From assembly GCF_004193775.1 (NCBI RefSeq), contig NC_041016.1, positions 39,416,547 to 39,480,546 of the forward strand: a stretch of DNA of 64,000 nt, read 5' to 3'. The position numbers and the translations under genes were made by a program. The notes beneath the pieces are model-generated. The model was not told the DNA's origin. It saw only the letters and a program-made list of their open reading frames with translations, and ran no database searches. This stretch comes from Glycine soja (Eukaryota; Streptophyta; Magnoliopsida; Fabales; Fabaceae). Numbering within the stretch: position 1 is the stretch's first letter; each line of letters begins with the position of its first letter. This document shows, in pieces, positions 29,033 through 56,480 of this stretch.

Positions 29033-30600
29033 TGCGAATCACATATCGAGATTCTCAAAATTTAAAATCGAAAGCTCTAGATAAATTCAAATGGTCGTAA
29101 CATATCACACGGAAGTACGATTCAGGCGCATAATATATCAGGACGCTCGAAATTGAAGAACGAATGCTCTCGAGAAATTCAAATGATCAAAACTTGTCAC
29201 ACGAAAGTCTGATTCTGGTGCATAATATATCAAGACACTCGAAATTGAACATCGAATGCTCTCGAGAAATTCAAATGGTCATAACTTGTCACACGGAAGT
29301 CCGATTTTGGTGCATAATATATCCAGACGCTAGAAATTGAACATCGAATACTCTCGAGAAATTCAAATGGTCATAACTTCTCACACGGATGTCCGATTCA
29401 GGCGCATAATATATCCAGACACTCGAAATTGAACATCGGAAGCTCTCGAGAAATTCATATGGTCATAACAATTCACACGGAAGTCCGATTCTGGCGCATC
29501 ACATATCGACACGCTCTAAATTTAAAACCAGAAGCTCTTGAGAAATTCAAATGGTCATAACTTGTCACACGGAAGTCCGATTCAGGCGCATCACATATCC
29601 AGACGCTCTAACTTGAAATCCGGAAGCTCTCAAGAAATTAAAATGATCATAACTTGTCACACGGAAGTTCGATTCTGGCGCATCACATATCGAGACGCTT
29701 TAAATTGAAAACCGGAAGCTCTCGAGAAATTCATATGGTCATAACTTATCACACGGAGGTATGATTCAGGCGCATAATATATCGAGACGCTCGAAATTGA
29801 ACAACGAATGCTCTCGAGAAATTCAAATGGTCATAACTTGTCACACGGAAGTCCGATTCTTGCGAATCACATATTGAGATTCTCAAAATTTAAAATCGAA
29901 AGCTCTAGATAAATTCAAATGGTCGTAACTTATCACACGGAAGTACGATTCAGGCGCATAATATATCAGGACGCTCGAAATTGAAGAACGAATGCTCTCG
30001 AGAAATTCAAATGATCAAAACTTGTCACACGAAAGTCTGATTCTGGTGCATAATATATCAAGACGCTCGAAATTGAACATCGAATGCTCTCGAGAAATTC
30101 AAATGGTCATAACTTGTCACACGTAAGTCCGATTCTGGTGCATAATATATCAAGACGCTAGAAATTGAACATCGAATACTCTCGAGAAATTCAAATGGTC
30201 ATACCTTCTCACACGGATGTCCGATTCAGGCGGATAATATATCCAGACACTCGAAATTGAACATCGGAAGCTCTCGAGAAATTCCCATGGTCATAACTAT
30301 TCACACGGAAGTCCGATTCTGGCGCATCACATATCGACACGCTCTAAATTTAAAACCAGAAGCTCTCGAGAAATTCAAATGGTCATAACTTGTCACACGG
30401 AAGTCCGATTCAGGCGCATCACATATCCAGACGCTCTAACTTGAAATCCGGAAGCTCTCAAGAAATTAAAATGATCATAACTTGTCACACGGAAGTTCGA
30501 TTCTGGCGCATCACATATCGAGACGCTTTAAATTGAAAACCGGAAGCTCTCGAGAAATTCAAATGGTCATAACTTGTTACACGAAAGTCCGATTCAGGCA
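29033..30600 (+). repeat. 828-bp duplicated unit in the right CentGm block
   Basis: The marker TTTAAAATCGAAAGCTC with its neighbours occurs at 27221, 28417, 29063, 29891, 31271 and 32557. Spacings are 1196, 646, 828, 1380 and 1286 bp, close to 13, 7, 9, 15 and 14 monomers. The 29063 and 29891 units are almost identical over their length. This is an irregular higher-order structure, less uniform than in the left block. Confidence 0.7.
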
Positions 30601-33600
30601 CATAATATATCGAGACGCTCGAAATTGAACAACGAATGCTCTCGAGAAATTCAAATGGTCATAACTTGTCACCCGGAACTCCGATTCAGGTGCATACTCT
30701 ATTGAGACGCTCGAAATTGAACAACGAAAGCTCTCGAGAAATTCAAATGGTCAAAACTATTCACACGGAAGTTCGATTCATGCGGATAATATATCCAGAC
30801 GCTCGAAATTGAACAATGAATGCTCTCGTGAAATTCAAATGGTCAGAACCTTTCAGAGGGAAGTCCGATTCAGGCGCATAATATATCGAGACGCTAGATA
30901 TTATACAACGAATGCTCTCGAGAAATTCAAATGGTCATAACTTGTCACACGGATGTCCGATTCAGGCGCATAATATATCGAGACGCTCGAAATTGAACAA
31001 CGAATGCTCTCGAGAAATTCAAATGGTCATAACTTGTGACACCGATGTCCGATTCTGGTGCATAATATATCGAGACGCTCAAAATTGAACAACGAATGCT
31101 CTCGAGAAATTCAAATGGTCATAACTTATCACATGAAGGTCTGATTCAGGCGCACAATATATCGAGACGCTCGAAATTGAACAACGAATGCTCTCGAGAA
31201 ATTCAAATGGTCATAACTTGTCACACCGAAGTCCGATTCTTGCGCATCACATATCGAGACGCTCAAAATTTAAAATCGAAAGCTCTAGATAAATTCAAAT
31301 GGTCGTAACTTCTCACACGGAAGTACGATTCAGGCGCATAATATATCAGGACGCTCGAAATTGAAGAACGAATGCTCTCGAGAAATTCAAATGATCAAAA
31401 CTTGTCACACGGAAGTCTGATTCTGGTGCATAATATATCAAGACGCTCGAAATTGAACATCGAATGCTCTCGAGAAATTCAAATGGTCATAACTTGTCAC
31501 ACGGAAGTCCGATTCTGGTGCATAATATATCGAGACGCTCAAAATTGAACAACGAATGCTCTCGAGAAATTCAAATGGTCATAACTTATCACATGAAGGT
31601 CTGATTCAGGCGCACAATATATCGAGACGCTCGAAATTGAACAACGAATGCTCTCGAGAAATTCAAATGGTCATAACTTGTCACACGGAAATCCTATTAT
31701 GGCGCATCACATATCGAGACGCTCTAAATTCAAAACCGGAAGCTCTCGAGAAATTCAAATGGTCATAAGATGTCACATGGAAGTCCGATTCAGGCGCATA
31801 ATATATCAAGATGCTCGAAATTGAACAACGAATGCTCTGGAGAAATGCAAATGGTCATAACTTGTCACATGGAGGTCTGATTCAGGCGCATAATATCGAG
31901 ACGCTCTAAATTGAACAATGAATGCTCTCGAGAAATTGAAATGGTCATAACTTGTCACATGGATGTCCGATTCAGGCGAATAATATATCGAGATGCTCGA
32001 AATTGAGCAACAAATGCTCTCAAGATATTCAAATGGTCATAACATGTCACATGGAAGTCCGATTCAGGCGCATAACATATCGAGACGCTCTAAATTGAAA
32101 ATTGGAAGCTCTTGCGAAATTCAAGTGGTCATAAGATGTCACATGGAAGTCCGATTCAGGCGCATAATATATCAAGATGCTCGAAATTGAACAAAGAATT
32201 CTCTCGAGAAATTCAAATGGTCGCAACTTGTCACACGGAAGTCCGATTCTGGTGCATAATATATCGAGAGACTCGAAATTGAACAACGAATGCTCTCGAG
32301 AAATTCAAATGGTCATAACTTATCACACGGAAGTCTGATTCAGGCGCATAATATATCGAGACGCTCGAAATTGAACAACGAATGCTCTCGAGAAATTCAA
32401 ATGGTCACAACTTGTCACATGGAAGTCCGATTCTGGTGCATAATATATCGAGACACTCGAAATTGAACAACGAATGCTCTCGAGAAATTCAAATGGTCAT
32501 AACTTATCACACGGAAGTCTGATTCTTGCGCATCACATATCGAGAAGCTCAAAATTTAAAATCGAAAGCTCTAGATAAATTCAAATGGTCGTAACTTATC
32601 ACACGGAAGTCCGATTCAGGCGCATCACATATCATGACGCTCTAACTTGAAATCCGGAAGCTCTCGAAATTGAACAACGAATGCTCTCGAGAAATTCGAA
32701 TGGTCATAACTTTTCACACGAATGTCCGATTCAAGCGCATAATATATCCAGATACTTGAAATTGAACATCGGATGCTCTCGAGAAATTCCCATGGTCATA
32801 ACTTTTCACATGGAAGTCCGATTCTAGCGCATCACATATCGACACGCTCTAAATTTAAAACCGGAAGCTCTCGAGAAATTCAAATGGTCATAACTTGTCA
32901 CATGGAAACCGATTCAGGCGCATCACATATCCAGACGCTCTAACTTGAAATCCGGAAGCTCTCGAGAAATTAAAATGATCAAAACTTGTCACACGGAAGT
33001 CCGATTCTGGCGCATCACATATCGAGACGCTCTAAATTGAAAACCGGAAGCTCTCGAGAAATTCAAATGGTCATAACTTGTCACACGAAAGTCCGATTCA
33101 GGCGCATAATATATCCAGACACTCGAAATTGAACATCGGAAGCTCTCGAGAAATTCCCATGGCCATAACTTTTCACAAGGAAGTATGATTCTGGCGCATC
33201 ACATATCGACAAGCTCTAAATTGAAAACCGGAAGCTCTCGAGAAATTCAAATGGTCATAACATGTCACACGGAAGTCCGATTCAGGCGCATCACATATCA
33301 TGACGCTCTAACTTGAAATCCGGAAGCTCTCGAAAAATTAAAATGATCATAACTTGTCACACGGAAGTCCGATTCTGACGCATCACATATCGAGACGCTC
33401 TAAATTGAAAACCGGAAGCTTTCGAGAAATTCAAATGGTCATAACTTTTCACACGGAAGTGCAAATCAGGCGCATAATATATCGAGACGCTCGAAATTGA
33501 ACAACGAATGCTCTCGAGAAATTCAAATGGTTATAACTTGTCACACGGATGTCCGATTCAGGCGCATAATATATCGAGACGCTCGAAATTGAACAACGAA

Positions 33601-36147
33601 TGCTCTCGAGAAATTCAAATGGTCATAACTTGTCACACGGATGTCCAATTCAGGCGCATAATATATCAAGACGCACGAAATTGAACAACGAATGCACTCG
33701 AGAAATTAAAATGGTCATAACTTGTCACCCGGAAGTCCGATTCAGGCGCATACACTATTGAGACGCTCGAAGTTGAACAACGAAAGCTCTCGAGAAATTC
33801 AAATGGTCAAAACTTGTCACACGGAAGTTCGATTCAGGCGGATAATATATCCAGGTGCTCGAAATTGAACAATGGAAGCTCTCGATAATTTCAAATGGTC
33901 AGAACCTTTCAGAGGGAAGTCCGATTCAGGCGCATAATATATCGAGACGCTCGATATTGTACAACGAATGCTCTTGAGAAATTCAAATGGTCATAACTTG
34001 TCACACGGATGTCCGATTCAGGCGCATAATAAATTGAGACGCTCGAAATTGAACAACGAATGCTCTCGAGAAATTCAAATGGTTATAACTTGTCACACGG
34101 AAGTCCGATTCTGGTGCATAATATATCGAGACGATCGAAATTGAACAACGAATGTTCTCGAGAAATTCAAATGGTCATATCTTTTCACACGGATGTCTGA
34201 TTCAAGCGCATAATATATCCAGATACTTGAAATTGAACATCGGAAGCTCTCGAGAAATTCCCATGGTCATAACTTTTCACATGGAAGTCCGATTCAGGCG
34301 CATCACATATCGACACACTCTAAATTGAAAACCGGAAGCTCTCGAGAAATTCAAATGGTCATAACATGTCACACGGAAGTCCGATTCAGGCGCATCACAT
34401 ATCATGACGCTCTAACTTGAAATCCGGAAGCTCTCGAGAAATTAAAATGATCATAAATTGTCACACGGAAGTCCGATTCTGACGCATCACATATCGAGAC
34501 GCTCTAAATTGAAAACCGGAAGCTCTCGAGAAATTCAAATGGTCAAAACTTGTCACACGGAAGTTCGATTCAGGCGGATAATATATCCAGGCGCTCGAAA
34601 TTGAACAATGGAAGCTCTCGAGAATTTCAAATGGTCAGAACCTTTCAGAGGGAAGTCCGATTCAGGCGCATAATATATCGAGATGCTCGATATTGTACAA
34701 CGAATGCTCTTGAGAAATTCAAGTGGTCATAACTTGTCACATGGATGTCCGATTCAGGCGCATAATAAATCGAGACGCTCGAAATTGAACAACGAATGCT
34801 CTCGAGAAATTCAAATGGTTATAACTTGTTACACGGAAGTTCGATTCTGGTGCATAATATATCGAGACGATCGAAATTGAACAACGAATGCTCTCGAGAA
34901 ATTCGAATGGTCATAACTTTTCACACGGATGTCCGATTCAAGCGCATAATATATCCAGATACTTGAAATTGAACATCGGATGCTCTCGAGAAATTCCCAT
35001 GGTCATAACTTTTCACATGGAAGTCCGATTCTGGCGCATCACATATCGACACGCTCTAAATTTAAAACCGGAAGCTCTCGAGAAATTCAAATGGTCATAA
35101 CTTGTCACATGGAAACCGATTCAGGCGCATCACATATGCAGACGCTCTAACTTGAAATCCGGAAGCTCTCGAGAAATTAAAATGATCAAAACTTGTCACA
35201 CGGAAGTCCGATTCTGGCGCATCACATATCGAGACGCTCTAAATTGAAAACCGGAAGCTCTCGAGAAATTCAAATGGTCATAACTTGTCACACGAAAGTC
35301 CGATTCAGGCGCATAATATATCGAGACGCTCGAAATTGAACAACGAATGCTCTCGAGAAATTCAAATGGTCATAACTTGTCACCTGAAAGTCTGATTCAG
35401 GCGCATACTCTATTGAGACGCTCGAAATTGAACAACGAAAGCTCTCGAGAAATTCAAATGTTCAAAACTTGTCACACAGAAGTTCGATTCAGGCTGATAA
35501 TATATCCAGACGCTCGAAATTGAACAATGGAAGCTCTCGAGAAATTCAAATAGTCAGAACCTTTCAGAGGGAAGTCCGATTCAGGCGCATAATATATCGA
35601 GACGCTCGATATTGTACAACGAATGCTCTCGAGAAATTCAAATGGTCATAACTTGTCACACGGATGTCCTATTCAGGCGCATAATATATCGAGACACTCG
35701 AAATTGAACAAAAAATGCTCTCGAGAAATTCAAATGGTCATAACTTGTCACACGGAAGTCCGATTCTGGGGCATAATATATCGAGACGCTCGAATTTGAA
35801 CAACGAATGCTCTCGAGAAATTCAAATGGTCATAACTTATCACACGGAGGTCTGATTCAGGCGCATAATATATCGAGTCGCTCGAAATTGAACAACGAAT
35901 GCTCTCGAGAAATTCAAAATGGTCACAACTTGTCACACGGATGTCCGATTCAGACGCATACTATATCGAGACGCTCGAAATTGAACAACGAAAGCTCTCG
36001 AGAAATTCAAATGGTCATAACTTTTAGCACGAAAGTCCGATTCAGGCGCATAATTTATCCAGACGCTCGAAATTGAACAACGAAAGCTCTCGAGAAATTC
36101 AAATGCTCATATCTTTTCAAACGGAAGTCCGATTCAGGCATATATTC

Positions 36148-36339
36148 GGCAACAATTAATAGTCTTGGTAGTGCTTCTGCCTATGGGCCTTCATCTTTCT
36201 CCACTTGGGCCTTCAATCATCATAAATGGTAGCTATACAAATGACCTGCCTTGTGACAGGTTGGGCCTGTTTAAGTCTGCCTCTGGTCATGGGCCCTTCA
36301 AGTGCTTCATGGTCCTTGCCCTTAGTTGTGTCTTCATCA
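36148..36339 (-). repeat. Truncated 3' LTR of element C
   Basis: The first 192 bp of the LTR on the minus strand, starting TGATGAAGACAC at 36339 after the polypurine tract (36340-36352, minus strand AAGAAGGAGGGAG). It matches the 5' LTR of C up to CAACAATTAATAGTC, then breaks into CentGm. About 330 bp of LTR is missing. Confidence 0.85.
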
Positions 36340-37409
36340 CTCCCTCCTTCTTGAAAAGGATTTGTCCTCAAATCCAAGGCTCCTCCATCTGCATCAAAAA
36401 GAGATAGATCATACACATTGAAAGTGGCACTTACATTATACTCACTAGGCAAGTCAATCTTGTAGGCATTGTCGTTGATCTTCTCCAACACTTGGAATGG
36501 TCCGTCTCCTCTAGTTTGAAGCTTGGACTTCCTGTGTTCTGGGAACCTCTCCTTCCTCAAGTGTACCCAAACCCAATCACCTGGTTCAAGCACGACTTTC
36601 TTTCTTCTTTTGTTGGCTTGCCTTGCATAGCTCGCATTTTTCTTTTCAATTTGAGCCTTCACTTGCTCATGCAGCTTCTTCACATACTCAACTTTAGCTT
36701 GTGCATCCTTATGCTTAAACATAGCAATGCTAGGCATAGGCAACAAATCAAGAGGAGTCAAAGGATTAAATCCATACACTATCTCAAATGGTGAACAATT
36801 AGTTGTGCTATGGACAGCCCGATTATAAGCAAACTCAACATGAGGCAAACATGCTTCCCAAGATTTAAGATTTTTCTTTAAAACAGTCCTAAGCAGTGTG
36901 CCTAAAGTCCTATTGACTACCTCAGTTTGACCATCAGTTTGTGGGTGACAAGTAGTAGAAAACAACAATTTAGTACCAATCTTACCCCACAAGGTCCTCC
37001 AAAAGTGACTAAGGAATTTTGCATCCCTATCACTGACAATGCTCCTCGGTAATCCATGAAGCCGCACTATTTCTTTGAAAAACAAATCAGCCACATGACA
37101 AGCGTCATCCACTTTCTTGCTAGGGATGAAGTGTGCCATCTTAGAAAACTTGTCAACAACAACAAACACAGAATCCTTTCCATTCTTGGTTTTGGGAAGC
37201 CCCAAAACAAAGTCCATAGATATGTCAGTCCAAGGATATTCAGGAACAGGCAAAGGAGTATACAATCCATGAGGTTTAACCTTAGATTTAGCTTGTTTAC
37301 ACACAATGCAATGACCACAAAACTTATGCACATCACGCCTCATATGAGGCCAAAAGAAATGCTCTTGCAGAATTTCCAGGGTCTTTTGAATCCCAAAGTG
37401 TCCCATCAA
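36213..37409 (-). pseudogene. Integrase part of element C pol
   Basis: 398 codons covering integrase from just after its N-terminal zinc-finger start to the tail: [21 protein letters not shown] with CGHCIVC (HHCC finger), the DDE core ([37 protein letters not shown], all three acidic residues present) and the GPF/Y module ([17 protein letters not shown]). The CRM-like tail ([16 protein letters not shown], then [14 protein letters not shown]) runs into the 3' LTR. It is separated from the upstream frame by a one-base deletion in a C-rich run near 37409, so it would not be made as part of a polyprotein. Confidence 0.92.
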
Positions 37410-39325
37410 CCCCCCTCATGGGATTCACTCACAAGCAACTCTCTAATGGAACACTTAGGCACACATAATTTATTTGCTTTAAACAAGAATCCATTATGCC
37501 TATAGTAACCATTTTCAGAAAACTTTTCACATGCAGCAAAATTTTCAGCAAAGTCCACATCATGCACATACATGTCTTTCAAAGACTCGAGACCAAACAG
37601 TTTAGTTTCAAGCATAGCAAGTAAAGCATGTCTCCTAGACAGTGCATCAGCCACTACATTCCCTTTCCCCTTTTTATGTTTGATGACGTATGGAAATTGC
37701 TCTAAAAACTCTACCCACTTAGCATGCCTCTTATTAAGCTTTCCTTGGCCTTTTAAGTATTTTAAGGACTCGTGATCACTATGGATGACAAACTCTTTGG
37801 GTAATAGGTAATGCTGCCAAGTTTGTAAAGCTCTAACCAAAGCATACAATTCCTTATCATAAGTTGAATAGTTAAGGGCAGCGGCTCCTAACTTTTCACT
37901 AAAATAAGCTATCGGATGTCCCTCTTGCAACAAAACAGCCCCAATACCCACATTTGATGCATCACACTCAATTTCAAATGATTTTGCAAAATTAGGCATA
38001 GCAAGAATGGGTGCATTAGTTAACCTATGTTTGAGGGCAGCAAAGGCATCTTCTTGTTTCTTACCCCATTGGAAACCCACATTCTTCTTAACAACTTCAG
38101 TTAGAGGTGCAGCCAATGTACTAAAATCCTTAACAAATCTCCTATAGAAACTTGCTAAACCATGAAATCCCCTCACCTCACTCACGGTCTTAGGTGTTGG
38201 CCATTCTTGGATGGCCTTAACCTTTTCCACATCCACCCGTACTCCCTCAGCACTAATAACAAAACCCAGAAACACCACATGATCAGTACAAAAGGAGCAC
38301 TTTTCTAGGTTGGCATACAATTTTTCTTTCCTAAGCACACTTAAAACAGATTGCAAATGTTCAGCATGCAAATCAAGACTAGTGCTATAGATAAGAATAT
38401 CATCAAAGTACACCACCACAAATTTCCCAATAAATTCCCTTAAAACATGGTTCATCAATCTCATGAAAGTACTAGGTGCATTAGTCAAACCAAATGGCAT
38501 AACCATCCACTCATACAAACCATATTTTGTTTTAAAGGCAGTTTTCCATTCATCTCCCTCTCTAATTCTAATATGATTATAGCCACTTTTCAGATCAATT
38601 TTGGAAAACACACATGCACCATACAGTTCATCAAGAAGATCATCTAACCTGGGGATTGGATGCCTATACTTGATGGTGATGTTGTTTATGGCTCTACAAT
38701 CAAAACACATCCTCCATGAGCCGTCCTTCTTGGGTACTAGAATTACAGGTACAGCGCACGGACTCATACTATCTCTCACCCAACCTTTGCTCAGGAGTTC
38801 GGACACTTGCCTTTCAATCTCCTTAGTTGCTTGTGGGTTGCTCCTATAAGCTGGCCGATTGGGCAAGGACGCTCCTGGAATGAGATCAATGTGATGCTCA
38901 ATTCCCTTCAATGGTGGCAAACCATCCGGTACACTTGTTGGAAACACATCATCAAAATCCCGCTGAAGAGACTGAATACCAGAAGGCAATTTAAATTCAT
39001 CAATTGGGTTAGCATGCAACATCTGACGTTGAGAAAACAATAAATAGAGGGGTTGTCTCGCACAAAGCACCCTCCTTACCTCCCTTTTTGTTGCTAAACA
39101 AAGCTGTTTGCCCTCAAGTGTTTCACTCTTTTTGTTTTCTCTCTTTTCCCTCTCAAGTGTTTCACTCTTTTTCTTTCCTCTCTGTTCCTTCTCAAGTGTC
39201 TCACTCTTTTTCTTTTCTCTCACTTTTATCTGATCCTCACAAACCTCTTTAGGAGATAACGGTTTGAGAACAATTTTCTTGTCAACTTGCTTGAAAGAGA
39301 TTTTGTTGGTGAAGCCATCATGCAC
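37406..39325 (-). pseudogene. RT-RNase H-integrase start of element C pol
   Basis: 639 open codons. In order: the end of the protease region ([10 protein letters not shown]), a [11 protein letters not shown] linker, reverse transcriptase ([38 protein letters not shown], catalytic [10 protein letters not shown]), RNase H ([33 protein letters not shown]) and the linker to integrase ([19 protein letters not shown]). It ends SESHEGG where a one-base deletion causes a stop. Motifs are intact within the segment. It is preceded by an in-frame stop at about 39347-39349 that replaces the arginine of LLGRPWQ. Confidence 0.93.
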
Positions 39326-39349
39326 TGCCTTGGTATCATACTGCCACGG

Positions 39350-39885
39350 TCATCCTAACAGCACATGGGTCGCTTCCATTGGGACCACATCACACAGCAC
39401 CCTATCATTATATCTCCCAATGGTGAGACACACCTCCACCTGTTGAGTCACTTTTACTTCTTCATCTTCACTAAGCCACTGAAGTTTGTATGGTCTAGGA
39501 TGGGGCTTAGTTTCCAAATTCAGGTTGGACACTAATCTGGAACTTGCAACATTGGTACAGCTTCCTCCATCAACAATTAAAGAGCACAGCTTACCATTAA
39601 TTATGCACCTGGTGTGGAAAATATTTTCTCTTTGATTGTCATCCAGTGGATGCATCTGATTTCCCAACAGCCTTTTCACCATCAGCATATCACCCTGCAT
39701 AGCTTCCTCCTCATACTCTTCTTCTTCCACTTCTTCTTCACTGATCTCAGACTCACTAGTGATTTCTTCATCAGCCTTCATGATCATGGTCCTCCTGGTT
39801 GGACATTCACAAGCAATATGTCCTCTGCCTAAGCACTTGAAGCATTTTATGTTTCTGGTTCCAGTATTGGATGAGGATGTGGAGG
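39350..39885 (-). pseudogene. Protease and gag zinc knuckle of element C
   Basis: On the minus strand this starts at the break made by element F and encodes a CCHC knuckle (CFKCLGRGHIACEC), an acidic EEEVEEEEYEEE stretch, then retropepsin with the [11 protein letters not shown] motif and EATHVLLG at the end, where a stop follows. It is the downstream half of the gag-protease frame; the upstream half lies at 42873-43767 beyond the insertion. Confidence 0.9.
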
Positions 39886-39890
39886 TGTTA

Positions 39891-40566
39891 TGATGAGAAT
39901 CATGAAACTGGCCAAATACAGGCTAAAGGCCCAAGTGGAGAAGGACAAAGGCCTAAGTGGAGAAGGACAAAGCCCCCGAGTGGAGAAGGATGAAGGCCCA
40001 AGTGGAGAAGGATGAAGGCTCAAGTGGAGATGGATGAAGGACCAGAGGCAGAGACACTATCAAGACAATTAATTGTTGCTGAAGGCCCAAACTAATTTGA
40101 AGGCCCAAGTTAAATATGTTTTTAGTTATAATTTTTATTTATTGTAGTTTTGGCCCAACCTATTTAGAAGACCCATGTCTATTTTTATCTTTTTGTTCAG
40201 ATACACTATAAGTATTGGTTTTTATTTTCAATAAAAAAAACTTTTGGCATTTTAATAAAATTTGGTGAGAGTTTCTCTCTGGGTTCCTTGTTGAACCAAT
40301 TATCAGACTTATCAAGGTAATCCTTGTGGCGTCTACCCAGACTTATCTTCCTTCATTGGAAGTGGCGTCTACCCAGACTTATCTTCCTTAACCGGAAGTG
40401 GCGTCTACCCAGACTTATCTTCCTTCACTGGAAGTGGCGTCTACCCAGACTTATCTTCCTTCACTGGAAGTGGCGTCTACCATGACTTATCTTCCTTCAC
40501 TGGAAGTGGCGTCATCCAAACCTTCGTAGCCTGTATCAAACGATCCGCCCCGTAAGGTTCACATCA
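39891..40566 (+). repeat. 5' LTR of element F
   Basis: 676 bp, TGATGAGAATC...TTCACATCA. It has two internal minisatellites: about five copies of a 22-bp unit with AAGTGGAGAAGGA (about 39930-40040) and five copies of a 36-bp unit with AGTGGCGTCTACCCAGAC (about 40327-40510). The 3' LTR has only three of the 36-bp units; 2 x 36 = 72 bp accounts exactly for the length difference. Confidence 0.93.
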
Positions 40567-40568
40567 TC

Positions 40569-40580
40569 TGGTATCAGAGC
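40569..40580 (+). other. Primer-binding site of element F
   Basis: TGGTATCAGAGC, a perfect 12-base match to the complement of the plant initiator tRNA-Met 3' end, two bases after the LTR. Confidence 0.9.
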
Positions 40581-41467
40581 TTCGGCTCTTGATACAGGTT
40601 CTATCTTATCCTATTATTTTTCTTTGTAATTTGTCCTGGTTCGTGTTTTTGTCCTTGTTCTGTTATATGCGTTCTTGTTTACATCTTGTTTCGTTTTTGT
40701 TTGCGTCTTGTGTTCTGTTATTTGCGTTCTTGTTCTTGTCACGTCCTTGTTCTTGTTTCTTGTGTCTTTCACACTGTGTCAAAAAAAAATTGCAAAAAAA
40801 ATTTGAAAAAAAAAGTGGGTGTTTGATCTTTGAACACGAAATTGAAGCATTTAGAGGTGTTTTTTTTGAAAGAAAATCGTGGAACAAATCCCCTTATCTA
40901 GATTCTCCTCTGAATTCTGAGCGTTTTGATATATAGTGGGCCTCAAACAGACAACCGTAGCAAAAGTTATGAGCATTTGAAGTTTAGTTGTCATATCTGT
41001 TATCTTATCTGTTATCCTATCTGTTATCTTATTTGTTATCATATCTGTTATCCAAATTAAATCTAATTTGTTATCCCAAATCTGATCTATTATCCAAATC
41101 AAATCAAATCAAATCAAAAAAATTTATCCAAATCAGATTTGTTATCCAAATCTAATCTGTTATCCAAATCAAATCCAATCTGTTATCCAAATCAAGTCCA
41201 AGTTGTTATCCCAAATCAAATCTGTTACTCTGATAATTCTATTGTCTTTCCTTTTATTTTATATTACCTTGTGTGTCTAATTCGGTCTATCCAGGAACTT
41301 AAGAGGGAGTGAGTGGTAAAAGGCAAGAGTGAAAACATCACACAAAAGCCTATATTGAGAGCATCAAACACGAGTGAACTACCATTAAAGAGAGAAACAC
41401 GTGAGTAGAGTGTGGTGAGGTCCTGATTTTTTTTTTAATTTACTGCAACATTCTTTGTTCCTTAATC
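40581..41467 (+). other. 5' leader of element F
   Basis: About 890 bp without a credible gene. It includes the CentGm-like segment (40910-40982, on the minus strand), then a degenerate tandem region of TCTGTTATCCAAATC-type units (about 40990-41230). ORFs across 40589-40936 are low-complexity (FLFASCVLLFAFLF type) and not taken as genes. Confidence 0.75.
40910..40982 (-). repeat. CentGm-like segment in the leader of element F
   Basis: On the minus strand: TTCAAATGCTCATAACTTTT, then CGGTTGTCTG, then ATATATCAAAACGCTC. The colinear, gap-free match to the satellite is as in element C. Antisense to the element RNA, as in C and B2. Confidence 0.8.
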
Positions 41468-42166
41468 ATGGCAAGAGCTGGTGACAATGGTGGTGTATAT
41501 CATCAACTGGACGAATCTCAACGCTTATTTCTGGACGCGTGGACTACACAAATGCAACGTTTGTTGAACCGTAACAAAGAAGAGCCCTACAAACGAATAG
41601 CCAAATCTTCCTCGTTTACTCTTAAACCTCTATCCCCTAGAGAAGTGTGTGATGACCAAATCAGAATGAGAGAAAAGAGAGAACAAGAGAAAGAAAATAG
41701 TGAGGCACCACAAAGGAATATGAAAAAGAAGAGTGATACACCCGAGGAAAAGAGTGATACACATAAGAGAGAGAGTGATACACATGAGAGAAAATTTAAT
41801 TATTTTGCAGAGGCGAGTGAAGTGAGGAAAGTGTTACCTGCTCATGAACCACTCAATCTACAGTATTGCAAAGACAGTAAAATTTCTACTGATAATTCTA
41901 ATGAGTTTACTATTTCTATTTCTCCTAGTGTTCAACCATTATTGCAGGAATTTAAAAATGTCTTTCCTAAGGAGATTCCTCATGGACTACCACCTTCAAG
42001 AGGCATAGAACATCAAGTTGATCTCCTCCCCGGAGCTTCATTGCCTAACAGACCAACTTACAAAAGCAATCCCCAAGAGACTCAACGTAAGGATGCACAT
42101 GCCAAAGTTGAGTATGTGAAAAGATTGTATGACCAAGTGAAGGTGCAAATTGAAAAAAAAGAATGA
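41468..42166 (+). CDS. Internally deleted gag-pol remnant of element F
   Basis: 232 codons starting MARAGDNGGVYHQLD, matching the gag start of element C. After about 41 residues it jumps to the region after protease (FTLKPLSPREVCDDQ), continues through a charged linker with repeats of SDT(P/H) type, the pre-RT segment (PHGLPPSRGIEHQVDLLPGA) and the first RT residues (YKSNPQET), then jumps to the integrase C-terminal region (DAHAKVEYVKRLYDQVKV). A run of eight A at about 42147-42154 breaks the frame shortly before the end; the rest (ENYAKQANKKRKEVVLEPGD, then LRTNVFQEGGND) continues in another frame. No catalytic motif remains. The two joints also occur in B2. Confidence 0.8.
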   Translation: MARAGDNGGVYHQLDESQRLFLDAWTTQMQRLLNRNKEEPYKRIAKSSSFTLKPLSPREVCDDQIRMREKREQEKENSEAPQRNMKKKSDTPEEKSDTHKRESDTHERKFNYFAEASEVRKVLPAHEPLNLQYCKDSKISTDNSNEFTISISPSVQPLLQEFKNVFPKEIPHGLPPSRGIEHQVDLLPGASLPNRPTYKSNPQETQRKDAHAKVEYVKRLYDQVKVQIEKKE

Positions 42167-42256
42167 AAACTATGCCAAGCAAGCCAACAAGAAAAGGAAG
42201 GAAGTGGTACTTGAACCCGGTGATGATCCTGGACATTTGAGGACAAATGTTTTCCA

Positions 42257-42268
42257 AGAAGGAGGGAA
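42257..42268 (+). other. Polypurine tract of element F
   Basis: AAGAAGGAGGGA immediately before the 3' LTR start TGATGAGAAT at 42269. Confidence 0.85.
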
Positions 42269-42872
42269 TGATGAGAATCATGAAACTGGCCAAATACAGG
42301 CTAAAGGCCCAAGTGGAGAAGGACAAAGGCCTAAGTGGAGAAGGACAAAGCCCCCGAGTGGAGAAGGATGAAGGCCCAAGTGGAGAAGGATGAAGGCTCA
42401 AGTGGAGATGGATGAAGGACCAGAGGCAGAGACACTATCAAGACAATTAATTGTTGCTGAAGGCCCAAACTAATTTGAAGGCCCAAGTTAAATATGTTTT
42501 TAGTTATAATTTTTATTTATTGTAGTTTTGGCCCAACCTATTTAGAAGACCCATGTCTATTTTTATCTTTTTGTTCAGATACACTATAAGTATTGGTTTT
42601 TATTTTCAATAAAAAAAACTTTTGGCATTTTAATAAAATTTGGTGAGAGTTTCTCTCTGGGTTCCTTGTTGAACCAATTATCAGACTTATCAAGGTAATC
42701 CTTGTGGCGTCTACCCAGACTTATCTTCCTTCATTGGAAGTGGCGTCTACCCAGACTTATCTTCCTTAACCGGAAGTGGCGTCTACCCAGACTTATCTTC
42801 CTTCACTGGAAGTGGCGTCATCCAAACCTTCGTAGCCTGTATCAAACGATCCGCCCCGTAAGGTTCACATCA
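42269..42872 (+). repeat. 3' LTR of element F
   Basis: 604 bp; the same sequence as the 5' LTR as far as I could compare by eye, with three instead of five 36-bp units. Followed by TGTTA, the target-site duplication. Confidence 0.93.
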
Positions 42873-43767
42873 TGTTATGTTTGCTTCCACCTACACTGGA
42901 CGCTGCTGACTTTCCATGCGGGGATGTGGCTGCAGGGCGGAACGAATTACCTCCCTCCTTCTTGGATCTGTTGGCCCAGTTCTGGTTGTAAGTATTGGAT
43001 GAGTTCCTCCTTGTTGCACTTTTTCTTTTAATTTTTTGTTCGACCCGGAGTGCCCTATGTAACAAGTCATCCAACGCCACATACTCCTGTAATTCAACAA
43101 CATCTCTGATTTCAGGGTTTAGACCATTCAGGAAACGAGCCACTGTGTCTTCGGAGTCCTCTTCAATGTTGGCCCTAACTAACGCCGTTTCCATCTCTTT
43201 ATAATATTCTTCCACAATTAAATTCCCTTGGGACAGCCCTTGGAGTTTCTGTCGCATGGTTCTGTTATAGCTAGTGGGCACATACCTTTTTCTCATTACC
43301 CTTTTCATCTCAGTCCATGTATCTACCTCTCGCCGCTCCTCTCTCAGCATTTCTCTCTGGTATTTATGCCACCAAACAAGAGCATAGTCGGAGAATTCAG
43401 CTGCTGCTAGCTTGACTTTCTGCTCTTCAGTGTAGTCATTACAGGCAAACACATGCTCAATCTTCATTTCCCAGTCCAGGTAGGCATCTGGATCACTTCT
43501 GCCTTTGAAGGTAGGAACATTGAGCTTTACTCCCTCAACCCGGTTCTGCCTCGGTCCGTCATTACCGCCATTGTTACCTTTGTTCCCATCTATATTTCGT
43601 CTAGCATTCTGATTGGCTTGGTTCTCCAAAAATTCTAGTCGTCCAAAGACCTCCTCATTGGTACGGTCCAGCAAACGTTGCATCTGTGCATTCATCGTGT
43701 CCAGTAACAGACGCTGAGCTCCGTCCAACTGATGATACTCGTCACCACCACCACCTGCTCCAGCCAT
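42873..43767 (-). pseudogene. gag of element C, 5' part, broken by element F
   Basis: About 298 codons from the start MAGAGGGGDEYHQLD. It contains the Ty3/gypsy gag core: [70 protein letters not shown] and LLHRALRVEQKIKRKS. The start is supported by the matching MARAGDNGG start in F and MSGTNPNDG in A. The frame is open up to the insertion; it resumes at 39885 in the same phase once F and one TGTTA copy are discounted. Gag would form the particle around the RNA. Confidence 0.92.
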
Positions 43768-44504
43768 AATTCAACAGAAAAAAAAGTTTGCAATAAAAAT
43801 TATTAGGGTTTTAGGACCTCACCACACTCGACTCACGAGTTTAACTCTTAGATGGTAGTACACTCGTGTTTGATGCTCTCAATAGGCTTTTGTGTAATGT
43901 ATTCCCTCTTGCCTTTTACCACTCGTGTTCCCTCTTAAGTTCCTGGATGGACCAAATTAGACACACAAGGTAATATAAAATAAAAGGAAAGACAATATAA
44001 TGATCACATACAGATTTAATTTGGGATAACAACTTGGACTTGATTTGGATAGCAGATTGAATTTGATTTGGATAAAAGACTAGATTTGATTTGGATAATA
44101 TATTAGATTGGATTTGGATAACAGATTACCTTTAATTTGGGTAACAGATATGATAACAAATAAGATATTAGATAGGATAACACATAAGATAATAGATATG
44201 ACAAGTAAACTTCAAATGCTCATAACTTTTGCTATGGTTGTCCGTTTGAGGCCCACTATATATCAAAACGCTCAGAATTCAGAGAAGAATCTAACTGCCT
44301 TAATTTTGTGTTCAAAGATCAAACACCCACTTTTTTTTTCAAAATTTCTGCAACTTTTTTTTTTGACACAAAGTGTGAAAGACACAAGAAACAAGAACAA
44401 GAACGCAAATAACAGAACAAGGACAAAAATACGAACCTAGACAAATTACAAAGAAAAAAAATAGGATAGGATAGGATAGGATAGAACCTGTATCAAGAGC
44501 CGAA
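43768..44504 (-). other. 5' leader of element C
   Basis: About 740 bp of untranslated leader between PBS and gag. It holds a degenerate run of GATAACAGAT-type repeats (about 44020-44200), a CentGm-like segment (44210-44282), A-rich stretches with AGAACAAGAACGCAAATAAC, and a GGATA pentanucleotide run (44463-44485). No ORF of note. Confidence 0.75.
44210..44282 (+). repeat. CentGm-like segment in the leader of element C
   Basis: Aligns without gaps to the CentGm monomer: TTCAAATG, TCATAACTTTT, TGTCCG, ATATATC, ACGCTC and AATT fall at the same spacing in both. By hand count about 56 of 72 positions agree with the satellite (counted on the F version, which differs at a few bases). It runs antisense to the element. 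Confidence 0.8.
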
Positions 44505-44516
44505 GCTTTGATACCA
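44505..44516 (-). other. Primer-binding site of element C
   Basis: Minus strand TGGTATCAAAGC, two bases from the LTR end; one mismatch to the initiator tRNA-Met complement, the same mismatch as after LTR G. Confidence 0.85.
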
Positions 44517-44518
44517 GA

Positions 44519-45037
44519 TGATGTGAACCTGATTAGGAGCGGATCGTTTGATACAGGCTACGGAGTTTTTGGATGACGCCACTTTCAGTGAAGGAAGATA
44601 AGTCAGGGTAGACGCCACAAGGATTACCTTGATAAGTCTGAGATTGGTTCAAGAAGGAACCCAGAGAGAAACTCTCACCCAATTTTATGAAAAATGCCAA
44701 AAGTTTTTTTTATTGAAAACAAAAACCACTACTTATAGTGTATCTGAACAAAAAGATAAAAATAGACATGAGCCTTCTAAACAGTTTGGGCCAAAATTAC
44801 AATAATTAAAAATTATAACTAAAAACATATTTAACTTGGGCCTTCAGCAACAATTAATAGTCTTGGTAGTGCCTCTGCCTCTGGGCCTTCATCTTTCTCC
44901 ACTTTGGCCTTCAATCATCATCAATGGTAGCTATACAAATGACCAGCCTTGTGAGGTGTTGGGCTTGTTTAAGTCTGCCTCTGGTCATGGGCCCTTCAAG
45001 TGCTTCATGGTCCTTGCCCTTAGTTGTGTCTTCATAA
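44519..45037 (-). repeat. 5' LTR of element C
   Basis: 519 bp; the minus strand ends GGTTCACATCA next to the PBS. The outer end reads TTATGAAGACAC where TGATGAAGACAC is expected, so the first bases have mutated or been lost at the junction with sat413 (AACCAATGTCGG). It carries one unit of the 36-bp LTR repeat and a segment of the polyprotein tail. Confidence 0.85.
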
Positions 45038-49677: not shown

Positions 49678-50298
49678 TGATGTGAACCTGAGTAGGAGCG
49701 GATCGTTTGATACAGGCTACGGAGGTTTTGGATGACGCCACTTCCAGTGAAGGAAGATAAGTCATGGTAGACGCCACTTCCAGTGAAGGAAGATAAGTCA
49801 GGGTAGACGCCACTTCCGGTGAAGGAAGATAAGTCTGGGTTGACGCCACTTCCAGTGAAGGAAGATAAGTCAGGATAGACGCCACAAGGATTACCTTGAT
49901 AAGTATGATAATTGGTTCAACAAGGAACCCAGAGAGAAACTCTCACCAAATTTTATGAAAATGCCAAAAGTTTTTTTTATTCAAAACAAAAACCAATACT
50001 TATAGTGTAGCTGAACAAAAAGATAAAAATAGACATGGGTCTTCTAAACAGTTTGGGCCAAAATTACAATAAAAATAAATTATAACTAAAAACTTATTTA
50101 ACTTGGGCCTTCAAATTAGTTTGGGCCTTTAGCAACAATTAATAGTCTTGATAGTGTCTCTGCCTCTGGGCCTTCATCCTTCTCCAATTGGGCCTTCATC
50201 CTTCTCTACTTGGGGGCTTTGTCCATCTCCACTTGGGCCTTCATCCTTCTCCACTTGGGCCTTTAGCCTGTATTTGGCCAGTTTCATGATTCTCATCA
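49678..50298 (-). repeat. 3' LTR of element B2
   Basis: 621 bp, with the F-type LTR start TGATGAGAATCATG at 50298 and the end GTTCACATCA at 49678. It has four units of the 36-bp repeat (49735-49885) and about five of the 22-bp repeat (50165-50270). A polypurine tract precedes it (50299-50310, minus strand). Confidence 0.9.
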
Positions 50299-50391
50299 TT
50301 CCCTTCTTCTTGGAAAACATTTGTCCTCAAATGTCTAGGATCATCACCGGGTTCAAGTACCACTTCCTTCCTTTTCTTGTTGGCTTGCTTG
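50299..50391 (-). pseudogene. End of the B2 reading frame (left of element A)
   Basis: Minus strand encodes KQANKKRKEVVLEPGD fused to the terminal LRTNVFQEEGND, the third deletion joint shared with F. It is separated from the rest of the frame (57602 onward) by element A. The last five bases (50387-50391, GCTTG) are one copy of the duplication. Confidence 0.85.
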
Positions 50392-51507
50392 TGATATGAA
50401 CCCTCATGGCACAAGGGCTGACTTAGGATCGTCTAGGATTAAACCTTGATGGAAAATGCGGAAATTGATTAAGGAAAGGATGGAAAATAAGGTGGTTAAT
50501 TTCGTGGGTCTTAATAAGGTGGTTTCTGGCATAAAATGGATGAATGGGATGGTAAAACGTAGGTTAAGTGGTGGCTGGACAGAAATATAGAAATGGCAAT
50601 AACGGAAGCTACAGGGCTCCAAATGAGGTGATTCCAAAACGAGGTGAAAGGTCTCGTTTTGAAATTCAATTTAGGCTCAAGAATCACTTAATTTGAGTGT
50701 GTAAAATGGGAGTTATGGTCACGAGATAATTTTGGGCAGAGGTGGATTTTCTGGAATTGTGGTTTGAAAGAACAAGGGTGGAGATGATAGGAAGGAAAGA
50801 ATCACTCTTTCCAGCGAGGGCAACACACAAAGGTTGTGAAAGTCCTTTGATACAGCCAGGGTGTTCTTGAATCACTCAAGAATTTAGGAGAATCACTCTC
50901 ACCAAGATAAAAGAGATAAACTCTAATTTTCTGAATAAAACTCAACTTGTGTTTATTGATAAAATGGTTCAGCTTATATAGAAGCTTTACAACAGATTTT
51001 AGTAATGACCCACTAACCTAGAATTAAAATAACTTAATGCCATTAACCTAGGGAATTAAAACAAACTTAATGGCTGAGTGTAACTGAAATTGTGGCAACC
51101 AAAAGTCACCCCCAACAGCCAACAAGTCAGCCACCATTTGGTCTCCCAAAAGGCTGATGCCTAGGTTGCCAATTGGGCCCTTATTACAACTTGAACTAAA
51201 GCCCTTTTAGTTGATTAACCCAAAACATATTTTTGGTCAGCCAACTTTACAAGGATTGGGCCATTATTTAGACAAACTAAACACTCTAAAATTGAAATAA
51301 AGTGGTGTCATTTAGTCCTCCTCCATTTGGGCCATGATACAACTCACAACCTTGGACTTTTCTCCTTGAAACTTGGGCTTGTATTCAAATAGTATGGACA
51401 ACACTTGTTGAAGAGCTTCCTTGGCTTTCCTTGCTCTAGCCCTTGTCATAGGTCCTCCAAGTCCTTCAAGTGGATCCTTGCCCTTGCTCTTGGTCATGTC
51501 CTCATCA
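50392..51507 (-). repeat. 3' LTR of element A
   Basis: 1116 bp; the minus strand starts TGATGAGGACATGACC at 51507 and ends GGTTCATATCA at 50392. The last 65 codons of gag-pol and its stop (51312) lie inside it. Confidence 0.95.
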
Positions 51508-54500
51508 TTCTCTCCCTCTTGAGAAGGATTTGTCCTCAAATCGGATTCTCCATCTGCATCAAAAAGAGATAAATCAGAGACATTGAAGGTGGAACTAACA
51601 TTATACTCATCGGGCAGCTCAACTTTGTAAGCATTGTCATTGATTCTTTCTAGCACTTGAAATGGTCCATCTCCCCTTGGTTGAAGCTTTGATTTCCTTT
51701 GTTCCGGAAACCTTTCTTTTCTCATGTGCACCCAAACCCAATCTCCGGGTTCGAAGACAACCTTCTTTCTCCCTTTGTTGGCTTGTTTAGCATAGCTTTT
51801 ACTTTTCCTCTCAATTTGATCTTTGACTCTCTCATGAAGCTTCTTCACATAGTCCGCCTTTGCTTGACCTTCTTTATGCTTAAAAACAGAAACATTAGGC
51901 AAAAGATCAAGAGGAGTTAGTGGGTTAAAACCATAAACAACTTCAAAAGGAGAACAATTAGTGGTGCTATGAACAGCTCTATTGTAAGCAAATTCAACAT
52001 GGGGTAAACAAGCTTCCCAAGTTTTTAAGTTATTCCTCAAAACTGTCCTAAGCAAAGTTCCCAAAGTCCTATTAACAACTTCCGTTTGCCCATCGGTTTG
52101 TGGGTGACAAGTGGTTGAAAATAACAATTTAGTGCCCAACTTGCTCCACAAAGTCCTCCAAAAATGGCTTAGGAACTTAGAGTCCCTATCACTAACAATG
52201 CTCCTTGGCAAACCATGGAGTCTCACAATCTCCTTGAAAAACAAATCAGCCACATGGGAAGCATCATCAACTTTTTTACATGGAATAAAATGAGCCATTT
52301 TAGAAAACCTATCAACAACCACAAAAATGGAATCTCTACCATTGCTTGTTTTTGGCAGCCCCAAAACAAAATCCATGGATAAATCAATCCAAGGATACTC
52401 CGGAATTGGCAATGGAGTATACAATCCATGAGGCTTTACCTTAGACTTTGCCTTTTTACATACAATGCAATGTTCACAAAATTTCTGCACATCCTTTTTC
52501 ATACGAGGCCAATAAAAATGTTCTTGTAATGTTTCTAGAGTCTTTTGGACCCCAAAATGCCCCATTAAACCTCCTTCAAGTGCTTCACAAACAAGCAAAT
52601 TTCTAGTAGAACATTTAGGCACACACAATTTGTTTTCTTTGAAAAGAAAGCCTTCATGTCTAAAGAAACCATTTTCTGAAAATTTTTCACAATTTTTAAA
52701 AATTTCTCCAAAAGTTTCATCATTTTCATACATGCTTTTCAAACATTCAAGACCAATCAATTTTGTTTCAAGCATAGAAAGTAATGCATGACGCCGAGAA
52801 AGAGCATCGGCTACAATATTACCTTTTCCCTTTTTATGTTTGATAACATAAGGGAATTGCTCTAGGAATTCCACCCTCTTCGCATGCCTTTTGTTAAGCT
52901 TGCCTTGCCCCTTGATATATTTGAGGGACTCATGGTCACTATGAATGACAAATTCCTTGGGATAAAGGTAGTGTTGCCATGTTTTCAAAGCCCGTACTAA
53001 GGCATACAACTCCTTATCATAAGTTGAATAGTTAAGGGTAGGACCACTTAACTTTTCACTAAAATAAGCAATTGGATGGCCTTCTTGCATCAACACAGCC
53101 CCAATCCCAACATTTGAAGCATCACACTCAATTTCAAAAGATTTTTGAAAGTTTGGCAACGCAAGTATGGGGGCATTAGTTAGCTTTTGCTTAAGAACAT
53201 TGAAAGCTTCTTCTTGTTTCTCTCCCCATTTGAAACCAACATTTTTCTTGAGCACTTCATTGAGAGGTGCTGCCAATGTGCTAAAATCCTTCACAAATCG
53301 TCTATAAAAACTTGCTAAGCCATGAAAACTCCTCACCTCGGTCACAGACTTAGGTGTAGGCCATTCTTGAATAGCCCTAACCTTCTCCTCATCAACTTGC
53401 ACTCCTTTTGAACTCACAACAAAACCAAGAAACACAACATGGTTAGTACAAAAAATGCATTTTTCAAGATTGGCATACAATTGTTCTTTTCTAAGCACAG
53501 TCAAGACAGATTTTAAATGATCAATATGCAAATCAAGTGAAGTGCTATAGATAAGAATATCATCAAAGTACACCACAACAAACTTTCCTATGAACTCTCT
53601 CAAGATATGGTTCATTAATCTCATGAAAGTGCTAGGAGCGTTAGTTAGGCCAAAAGGCATAACCAACCATTCATACAAACCATATTTTGTTTTAAAAGCA
53701 GTTTTCCATTCATCCCCTTCTCTAATCCTAATTTGATTGTATCCACTTTTTAAATCAATTTTAGAGAAGTAACATGCACCATGCAATTCATCAAGCAAAT
53801 CATCAAGCCTAGGTATAGGATGCCTATATTTAATGGTGATGTTATTAAGGGCTCTACAATCGGAACACATGCGCCATGTCCCATCCTTTTTAGGGACCAA
53901 AATCACTGGGACAGCACAAGGACTCATACTATCTCTTACCCAACCTTTGCTAATGAGTTCATCCACTTGTCTTTGAATCTCTTTGGTTTCTTGTGGATTA
54001 CTTCTATAGGCTGGCCTATTGGGCAAAGAAGCTCCCGGAATGAGATCAATTTGATGCTCAATTCCCCTCAAAGGTGGTAGTCCATTTGGCACATTTGGTG
54101 GAAACATGTCTTGAAAATCCTGCAAAAGAGTTTTAACACTAGAAGGCACTTCAAAATCATCAAAAGTGTTAGTGGTCAAAATCTGATTTTTGCAACACAA
54201 GATATATAGTGACTGTTTAGCACGAAACAACCTCTTGACCTCACTTTTTGTGGCTAAATAGCTCTCCCTCACTTCAAGTGTTTCACTCTTCTTTTGTTCA
54301 CTCTTTTTCCTCTCAAGTGTTTCCCTCTTTTTCTCACTCTCAAGTGTTTTGCTCACTTTTTCTTTTTCTTTTTTCTCTTGAAGAAGTTTTTCTCTCATTT
54401 TCTTTTGATCCTCACACACTTCTTGTGGACTCAATGGCTTGAGCACAATCTTTTTGTCTTGGTGCATGAAAGAGATCTTGTTGGTGTAACCGTCATGATT

Positions 54501-55889
54501 GGCTCTTTTATCAAATTGCCATGGTCTCCCCAAAAGTAAGTGACTGGCCTCCATAGGAACAACATCACAAAGTACCTTATCATTGTATTTCCCAATGGAA
54601 ACGTCCACTTCCACTTGCTGCCTCACTTGCACCTCCCCATCCTTACTAAGCCATTGAAGTTTGTATGGCCTAGGATGTGGTTTAGTAGCTAAATTTAGCT
54701 TTGACACTAATCTAGCACTAGCCACATTGGTGCAACTACCTCCATCAATGATCACCATGCACACCTTGCCATTGATTAAACATCTAGTGTGAAAGATGTT
54801 TTCTCTTTGGCTCTCCTCCTCATGCTTCAATTGACCACCAAGTAACCGCCTAATCATCAACAAATCTCCCTCCGGAGTCTCCTCTTCCTCTACGTACTCA
54901 CTCTCCTCTTCCTCTTCAACATCAGATTCACTTATATATTCTCCATCTCTAAGAACCATGGACCTTTTGTTAGGGCACTCATAAGCATAGTGTCTTAGGC
55001 CTTGGCACTTGAAACACTTCACATCTCTACTCCTTTTAGAGGGTTCCTCTTGGGACTTTGAGCGAGTTTTTGATGGGATAGGTGTGGAACTACTAGAAGT
55101 AGCAGCCCCATCTTTCTTACCTTTGTCTTTCCAACTAGAAGAACCAAAGTTGGTAAAACTCCTCTTAGCCACTCCGTTCCTTTTTAATTGTTGCTCCACT
55201 TGGATTGCTTTGTGAAGCAAATCATCCATTTCAACAAACTCCTGCAACTCAACAATATCACGGATATCATTAGTCAAACCATTAAGAAATCGAGCCATAG
55301 TTACCTCCTCATCTTCTTCAATATTTGCTTGAATCATGAGCACATCCATTTCCTTGAAATACTCCTCAACCCCCTTGTTGCCTTGGGTTAGTTTTTGGAG
55401 CTTGAATTTCAAGTCCCTTGAGTAACTAGCCGGCACATACCGCTTCCTCATGATCTTTTTCATCTCCGTCCATGTATCAACCATTGGCTCTTCATTTCTT
55501 GCTCTCTCCTTTTGTAGCTTGTTCCACCACACAAGAGCATAGTCGGAAAACTCCGTGGCGGCAAGCTTCACCTTCTGGTCCTCCTCATAGTTGTTGCATG
55601 AGAAAACATGCTCTATTTTCATCTCCCACTCCAAGTAGGCCTCCGGATCATTCTTTCCTTTAAATGGAGGAATGTTGAGTTTAATACCATCAATTCGGTT
55701 TTGTCTAGGAACACCATCATTCCCTCTTCTCCTCCTTTCTTCTTCATTATGATCTCTATTCTCCATTTGATCCAACCTCTCATGGAGCGCATCATCTCGT
55801 TGTTTCATTAACCTCTCCAAATGTTGCATCAAAGCTTGCATTTGGAATTGCGAAAGCCCCACTCCATCATTAGGATTAGTACCTGACAT
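51312..55889 (-). CDS. gag-pol polyprotein of element A
   Basis: Uninterrupted frame of 1525 codons from MSGTNPNDG; the frame is open nine codons further upstream, but this methionine matches the gag starts of C and F. Positions below count from that upstream methionine (1534 total). Gag core about 75-240; CCHC knuckle 301-314 ([14 protein letters not shown]); retropepsin with IDGGSCTN at about 390; KKSETLE linker 500-550; RT about 640-810 with YFDD at 783-786; RNase H about 925-1035 (D932, E969, D994); integrase HHCC finger (H1120, H1133, C1150, C1153) and core D1178, D1243, E1279, with 35 residues between the last two; GPF/Y module 1415-1435; CRM-like tail to the end. It would encode particle protein and all enzymes for retrotransposition. 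No defect is visible, so it may be functional. Confidence 0.95.
51508..51521 (-). other. Polypurine tract of element A
   Basis: Minus strand AAGAGGGAGAGAA directly before the LTR start; it lies within the open reading frame (NPSQEGEN). Confidence 0.8.
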
Positions 55890-55916
55890 CTCAAACAAAC
55901 AAATCAAACGTAACAA

Positions 55917-56466
55917 GACAATTATAGTTGCTGTTTGAATACCTCACCCACTCAAGTGTATCACACAATTATGGCTTTTCTCTAATGAAACACTCTTGCC
56001 TTTTACCACTCTAATTCCCCTTGAGTTCTTAGGCAATTCAAGAGATTATGGCCACAGCAAAGAACAATTCACCAATATGTGTAAGGTAAGGCTAGACAAG
56101 GAAAAGGTTAACCAAGAAAAAGGCTAACAATGTTTTTAGGCACAAATGAAGGAAATAAAATTCAGAATTTAGGAATTCAAGTAACAATCCTTCATGCAAC
56201 CAATATATTACCTTAAAGAGTTTTTTTTTTTAAGTTCTTCAAGCATGAACCATTCAGCCCAATTTTTTTTTTTTTTTAATTTTGCTTATACGAAATTCTG
56301 CTTCTTTTTTTTTTTTTATAACAAAGAGATCAAAAGGCTTAACTTTTGCAATGGTTCAGCCTAAAAAAAATATATATGAATAAGAAGGTAATATAAATGG
56401 CAAAGAGAATAAAGAAGGATGTTACCCAATATTTCCAGCAAAGGAAGTGTTGATCCTAGAACCGGA
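55917..56466 (-). other. 5' leader of element A
   Basis: About 550 bp, AT-rich, with long T runs (56220-56230, 56265-56278, 56306-56318). It has no gene. It lacks the GATAACAGAT repeats of the C/F/B2 leaders, but TAACTTTTGCAATGGTT at 56340-56356 resembles the first part of their CentGm-like segment (TAACTTTTGCTATGGTT in C). Confidence 0.65.
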
Positions 56467-56478: not shown

Positions 56479-56480
56479 AA

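Follow-up and report, generated by a model that had tools for sequence, protein, structure and literature searches.

The origin of the main centromere satellites is a long-standing question. In soybean, the tandem centromere repeats CentGm-1 and CentGm-2 (SB92/SB91) have a 92-bp monomer and subfamilies about 80% identical (PMC11447526, PMC8496230). In maize, the tandem repeats CRM1TR and CRM4TR consist of long units, each derived wholly from a single element and 95-98% identical, that occupy one locus or two adjacent loci (PMC3648361), and in Lathyrus satellites derive from tandem repeats of the Ogre 3' untranslated region (UTR), likewise an untranslated retrotransposon source in a legume (PMC7004042). 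CRM retrotransposons are marked by the LTR ends TGATG/CATCA, target duplications of 5 bp and a primer site for tRNA-Met, and in group A the reading frame runs into the 3' long terminal repeat (LTR) (PMC3059260). Here, we analysed a 64,000-nt stretch of Glycine soja DNA (assembly GCF_004193775.1, contig NC_041016.1, positions 39,416,547 to 39,480,546; "the window"), in which three CRM-type elements, termed C, F and B2, carry in their untranslated leaders a 73-bp segment homologous to the 92-bp satellite arrayed in the same window. For a satellite of the CentGm type, a clear aligned relative is here located within one defined region of CRM-type elements.

The leader segment and the elements that carry it

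The segments lie between the primer-binding site (PBS) and the gag start codon of each element, on the strands given here in satellite orientation:

44210..44282, plus strand: segment in the leader of element C; 55 of 73 matches, nhmmer E 5e-8; between PBS 44516 (minus) and gag ATG 43767 (minus)
40910..40982, minus strand: segment in the leader of element F; 55 of 73 matches, E 2.6e-8; between PBS 40569 (plus) and ATG 41468 (plus)
58634..58706, plus strand: segment in the leader of element B2; 54 of 73 matches, E 2.9e-7; between PBS 59051 (minus) and ATG 58310 (minus)
10208..36139, plus strand: 92-bp satellite array, CentGm-1-like (Tandem Repeats Finder), with 282 plus-strand nhmmer matches

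Ungapped matches were scored against the Tandem Repeats Finder consensus of the array in all registers and on both strands, with 2000 dinucleotide-preserving shuffles per segment as control. The shuffled segments averaged about 29 matches out of 73 and reached at most 38 for C, 36 for F and 41 for B2, far below the real scores. The first-pass annotation had located the three segments correctly and had aligned them to the satellite without gaps, as we also found; its hand count of about 56 matches in 72 positions was about one too high. An nhmmer scan of the window with a single satellite consensus (E up to 10) returned 286 matches, namely 282 on the plus strand in the array, one weak minus-strand match in the array (E 3.6) and the three leaders, which were the only matches outside the array. 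Chance similarity of AT-rich sequence, which would require the shuffles to approach 54-55 of 73, was rejected (shuffle maximum 41; E 3e-8 to 3e-7), and its probability is negligible.

In all three elements the segment is opposite in sense to its carrier (F on the plus strand with a minus-strand segment; C and B2 on the minus strand with plus-strand segments), and both this orientation and the untranslated position agree with the initial description. Its distance from the PBS start was 341 nt in F, 345 nt in B2 and 234 nt in C, and 227-616 nt in the 27 leaders scored (26 fetched loci). Between F and C, 71 of the 73 bases are kept, the highest conservation of any 73-bp stretch in this pair; only 7 of 1163 such stretches reach this level, all of them overlapping the segment. 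Compared with the rest of the leader, conservation of the segment differed modestly (Fisher p 0.011 for F-C; p 0.041 for B2-C).

Tandem repeats of 12 and 23 bp adjoin the segment on its gag side (40994-41223 and 44012-44198), their extent varying among C, F and B2; they are possibly a recombination-prone neighbour of the segment. Within the C segment, the core GTTATG (element sense) is complementary to CAUAAC around the anticodon of initiator tRNA-Met, a complementarity that may be due to chance; the related core in the leader of a fourth element, B, has no GTTATG.

The elements are arranged as follows:

36148..45037, minus strand: element C, interrupted by F, with its 3' LTR cut at the satellite junction
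Parts of element C, minus strand: 5' LTR about 44517-45037 (outer end uncertain), leader 43768-44516, gag open reading frame (ORF) 42865-43770, pol ORFs 36213-39922
36270..36371, minus strand: CR-like motif at the integrase end of C, its frame continuing to 36213 within the 3' LTR
39891..42872, plus strand: element F, non-autonomous; 5' LTR 39891-40566, 3' LTR 42269-42872
49678..59545, minus strand: element B2, non-autonomous, of the F family, lying in a ~412-bp repeat array and interrupted by B
50392..57596, minus strand: element B, of a related Ty3/gypsy family, inside B2; target duplication GCTTG/GCTTG; leader 55944-56478

LTR and leader are common to F, B2 and C. F sits in C between gag and pol, flanked by the target duplication TGTTA/TGTTA, and is a young insertion; its LTR pair shows one mismatch in 603 aligned positions. 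Its two LTRs contain 36-bp tandem repeats in differing copy number (40326-40513 and 42704-42819; 5.2 versus 3.2 copies). B2 has an LTR divergence of 0.043 and a target duplication with only three of five bases alike, and C is truncated. The short ORFs of F and B2 gave no Pfam match. By description, this pairing resembles that of SNRE/SARE, autonomous and non-autonomous partners in soybean.

A Pfam search of C identified gag, H2C2, rve and SH3_Tf2-1, with protease below the cut-off and no chromodomain match. The integrase tail of C includes ...GPMTRGRLK and is read into the 3' LTR; we take it to be the CR motif of CRM group A. With a strict CR pattern, similar tails were found in 3 of 120 listed homologues of the integrase, and one homologue named Glycine max shared 93% identity over 66% of the query. 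TGATG...CATCA ends were present in F, those of C being cut or uncertain, and 5-bp target duplications flank F and B. Directly after the 5' LTR stands a PBS, TGGTATCAGAGC or TGGTATCAAAGC, presumably for tRNA-Met. This assignment agrees with section 7 of PMC3059260. The CR motif running into the 3' LTR, without a type II chromodomain, is the arrangement of group A. Judged by these sequence features, the C, F and B2 elements fit CRM group A, in line with the CRM-type identity first assigned to them.

Genomic distribution and divergence from the satellite

A leader-specific 35-mer (up to 3 mismatches) was found at 374 + 426 = 800 places in the assembly, and its reversed control at none; the same 35-mer differed from the window array and from arrays of six other loci by at least 7 mismatches. 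The 100 matches listed lay on chromosomes 1 to 14, some near chromosome ends. With a 121-bp query, 1020 candidates were obtained; scoring of the best 40 of the 1020 confirmed a match in every case, and the 30 loci fetched were all of C or F/B2 type. Because these 30 loci were picked by the segment, they show only where matches sit. An exact same-sense PBS was present upstream of the segment in 26 of the 30, with none at L007, L009, L015 and L027. Leaders of C/F type not chosen by the segment also carried it (three of three in the window, one of one at L039 and two of two at L080 and L091), so the segment is not peculiar to the copies first described. When the open frame antisense to the leader served as a protein query (E up to 10), 35 proteins were returned, and every one aligned to the frame of the segment, two incompletely; one was named Glycine max (84% over 92%), and no other legume was identified among the 35.

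These distributions bear on a common third source, from which leader and satellite would each have taken the stretch as part of some other dispersed sequence. Such a source would accommodate the facts that neither direction is proven and that the leader leaves part of the monomer unexplained. Within the window, only leaders and the array match, and the genome-wide candidates scored and fetched were likewise of leader type, a weak point since the 121-bp query favours leaders. We consider a third source improbable.

The leaders differed from window monomers with a mean identity of 0.67-0.70 (maximum 0.77), compared with a monomer-monomer mean of 0.82, and were 75-77% identical to the satellite consensus. 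Of 741 monomers, the nearest to any leader stood at a distance of 0.219, and the largest nearest-neighbour distance among the monomers was 0.155. The closest monomer found had 0.792 identity and came from a degenerate array just upstream of the window. This array (L040, 4704-8979) is older and of mixed types. After arrays from five further places were added, giving 790 aligned rows (three with too few columns to class), 3 of the 787 classed rows fell between the leader and monomer classes, all diverged monomers of L015, L035 and L037. Leader states match one monomer cluster at some positions and another at others, and at nine positions the consensuses of the five larger monomer clusters agree with one another while the leaders differ.

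Two maximum-likelihood trees were built from 116 and 120 sampled monomers, each with 6 distinct leader rows, over 71 columns that left many inner forks weak. In both trees the leaders formed one clade (support 100/100) that was nested in none of the three supported satellite types. Support in the two trees was 98/89 and 96/90 for the 92-bp group, 97/90 and 98/95 for the ~91-bp type, and 99/97 and 99/89 for a third type. From the distances and trees together, the split between leader and satellite is about as deep as the split among satellite types. The G. latifolia repeats are 67-83% identical to CentGm, a similar depth (PMC8496230).

Recent exchange, whether by capture of a monomer or by gene conversion between leaders and the arrays of today, might be expected of elements inserted beside and within arrays. 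For the sampled arrays it is contradicted by the distances, including the best upstream-array identity of 0.792, and by the nine leader-distinct positions and the separate clades; we regard it as very improbable. The trees thus make a recent origin of the segment from any sampled monomer type unlikely, while leaving the direction of the older event unfixed.

Origin of the satellite

The first-pass annotation had offered two directions, a satellite amplified from a retrotransposon leader or a monomer captured by an ancestral element. Both are kept here in their older forms, and we favour the former, at evenly balanced confidence: the 92-bp satellite would have arisen by amplification of a piece of a CRM-type leader. 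The leader would be the older form. An ancestral element would have left a leader piece with about 19 further bases; unequal exchange or the repair of breaks would have multiplied this unit in tandem, and the arrays would then have radiated into the 92-bp and 91-bp types.

A shorter match in the leader of the related element B bears on this order of events:

56333..56356, minus strand: 24-bp match to the core of the segment in the B leader, at 122-145 nt from the start of the PBS

The B leader contains this core without the full segment, in the same sense and order. Its score of 31 with the C segment had p 0.001 (1000 shuffles), and the corresponding values were p 0.004 for F, 0.007 for B2 and 0.033 for the satellite consensus. 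The core was present in 28 of 30 B-family loci (30 of 69 places fetched) and missing in L043 and L051. The gag of C is 41-44% identical in protein to those of B-family loci over 97-104 residues, and the C and B leaders barely align beyond their 3' part; given this divergence, a core common to both leaders would probably antedate the satellite. The position of the leader outside the sampled satellite types, together with the B core, suggests the direction from leader to satellite.

In the rival direction, an early monomer would have been the donor: an ancestral C/F element lying in satellite arrays would have acquired 73 bp of it in its leader, template switching to a satellite RNA being one conceivable route, and later copies would have inherited the segment. 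We consider such an old capture possible, if on the unlikely side. It would explain why the segment covers part of a monomer and no remnant of the other 19 bp was found, and it suits the presence of family copies in or by arrays (satellite monomers within 1.5 kb at 5 of 30 loci). The leaders lie outside three supported satellite types and inside none, and the 24-bp core also occurs in the B leader; both argue against it.

Several results weigh against an origin in the leader. The joint of the leaders with the satellite types is weakly supported (85/21 and 38/0). The B core is short, an antisense B leader control reaches 28 against its 31, and the pol regions of B and C retain 79% DNA identity; together these make the age gap uncertain. 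For the other 19-20 of the 92 monomer bases, nothing comparable was found in the 45 bp next to the segment or in the elements, and 14 tests for a source of these bases gave one borderline match, to the B LTR. No exact pair of a leader-type 14-mer at a 79-109 bp period was found in the assembly (0 places). The conservation of the segment was not significant for F-B2 (p 0.39), nor in three of four comparisons with L080 and L091 (p 0.35, 0.38, 0.16 and 0.05). Two leaders whose 3' part is 72-77% like C/F, L072 and L075, show no segment in the 900 nt read, a point that also favours old capture. PMC11447526 reports CentGm-1-like repeats in perennial Glycine but no detection there of the centromeric retrotransposon family of soybean; this would suit a satellite older than the leader, and also speaks for capture.

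In a further sample (20 of 64 places fetched, about 900 nt each), the segment was present at 2 places, the B core at 5 and neither at 13, none of these 13 being shown to be CRM by gag. The roughly 800 places in the assembly offer material to date and compare, and the direction can be settled in the leaders of related legumes. If the leader origin is true, the origin of a centromere repeat becomes traceable.

Possible RNA pairing, window layout and comparison with known systems

The leader and the array share an exact 20-nt word. A 21-nt leader word had 109 array sites at up to 2 mismatches and 204 at up to 3, compared with a best array fit of 5-7 mismatches for 20 shuffled leaders. Given the antisense orientation of the segment, RNA of the element would be complementary to plus-strand transcripts of the array; the complementarity proposed at the outset is thus borne out at the level of sequence, and pairing between element RNA and satellite transcripts may be possible in the present-day genome. 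A further proposal is that the leader acts as a standing RNA bridge, in which element transcripts would yield small RNAs pairing with satellite transcripts and the satellite would be silenced and marked by its parent element; we give this little credence. In Arabidopsis, retrotransposon small RNAs have been tied to the function of centromere 5 via elements inserted in arrays, and no shared element-satellite sequence is mentioned in the part of that paper used here (PMC11410651). The antisense match makes the RNA link testable in existing small-RNA data.

Folding of the leader RNA was no better than shuffles in two of three stretches (z -0.23 and 0.48) and somewhat better in the B2 stretch (z -1.90; 4 of 200 shuffles as good). 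Rfam gave no leader match at gathering scores. Pattern searches gave two matches in IMG/VR and none in prokaryote genome contigs, and no integrase relative was found in viral contigs.

The window resembles a centromeric stretch, with 92-bp and ~412-bp tandem arrays and nested retrotransposons, and the 92-bp array is probably centromeric. Its tandem 92-bp monomer agrees in length with the CentGm-1 satellite, and the name CentGm is applied on this basis. The table of PMC11447526 lists CentGm-1 at 92 bp and CentGm-4 at about 413 bp, in agreement with the window repeat lengths. A 100-N assembly gap at 27043-27142 makes the length of the 92-bp array inexact. At 36139-36148 this array breaks off sharply within the 3' LTR of C, and that LTR lacks its outer portion. 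The remaining repeats are:

1-1404, 6374-7483, 45038-49675 and 61259-64000: ~412-bp repeat arrays (Tandem Repeats Finder)

None of the elements C, F, B and B2 resembled the ~412-bp repeat significantly (best E 0.19). A rearranged element occupies 1413-6180, with pol on the minus strand and two LTR-like ends inverted; only about 54 bp separate its plus-strand PBS, at 6127, from the ~412-bp repeat that follows. A solitary B-family LTR lies in a ~412-bp array at 60136-61261, with target duplication TCATG.

Among open-licence papers, none was found that connects CentGm with a CRM leader; the original soybean centromere reports, under subscription, fall outside this search, so absence from print is not shown. 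The sections of PMC11447526 and PMC8496230 used here state no such link for CentGm-1 and CentGm-2. GmCR, a centromeric retrotransposon named from soybean, is set beside C and F by description only; PMC11447526 reports no enrichment of GmCR with CENH3, and it need not be the C/F family. The elements are like CRM group A in LTR ends, target duplication, primer site and a CR motif running into the 3' LTR, and for the group A 5' UTR the portion of PMC3059260 consulted mentions an A-rich stretch and no satellite-like segment. The Ogre-derived Lathyrus satellites differ in coming from another clade, from the 3' side and from repeats already tandem in the element (PMC7004042). Unlike CRM1TR and CRM4TR, in which the monomer derives wholly from the LTR-UTR of one element and keeps 95-98% identity to its parent (PMC3648361), the satellite described here forms a long array, shares 73 of its 92 bp with the leader at 75-77% identity to the consensus, and runs antisense to the element.

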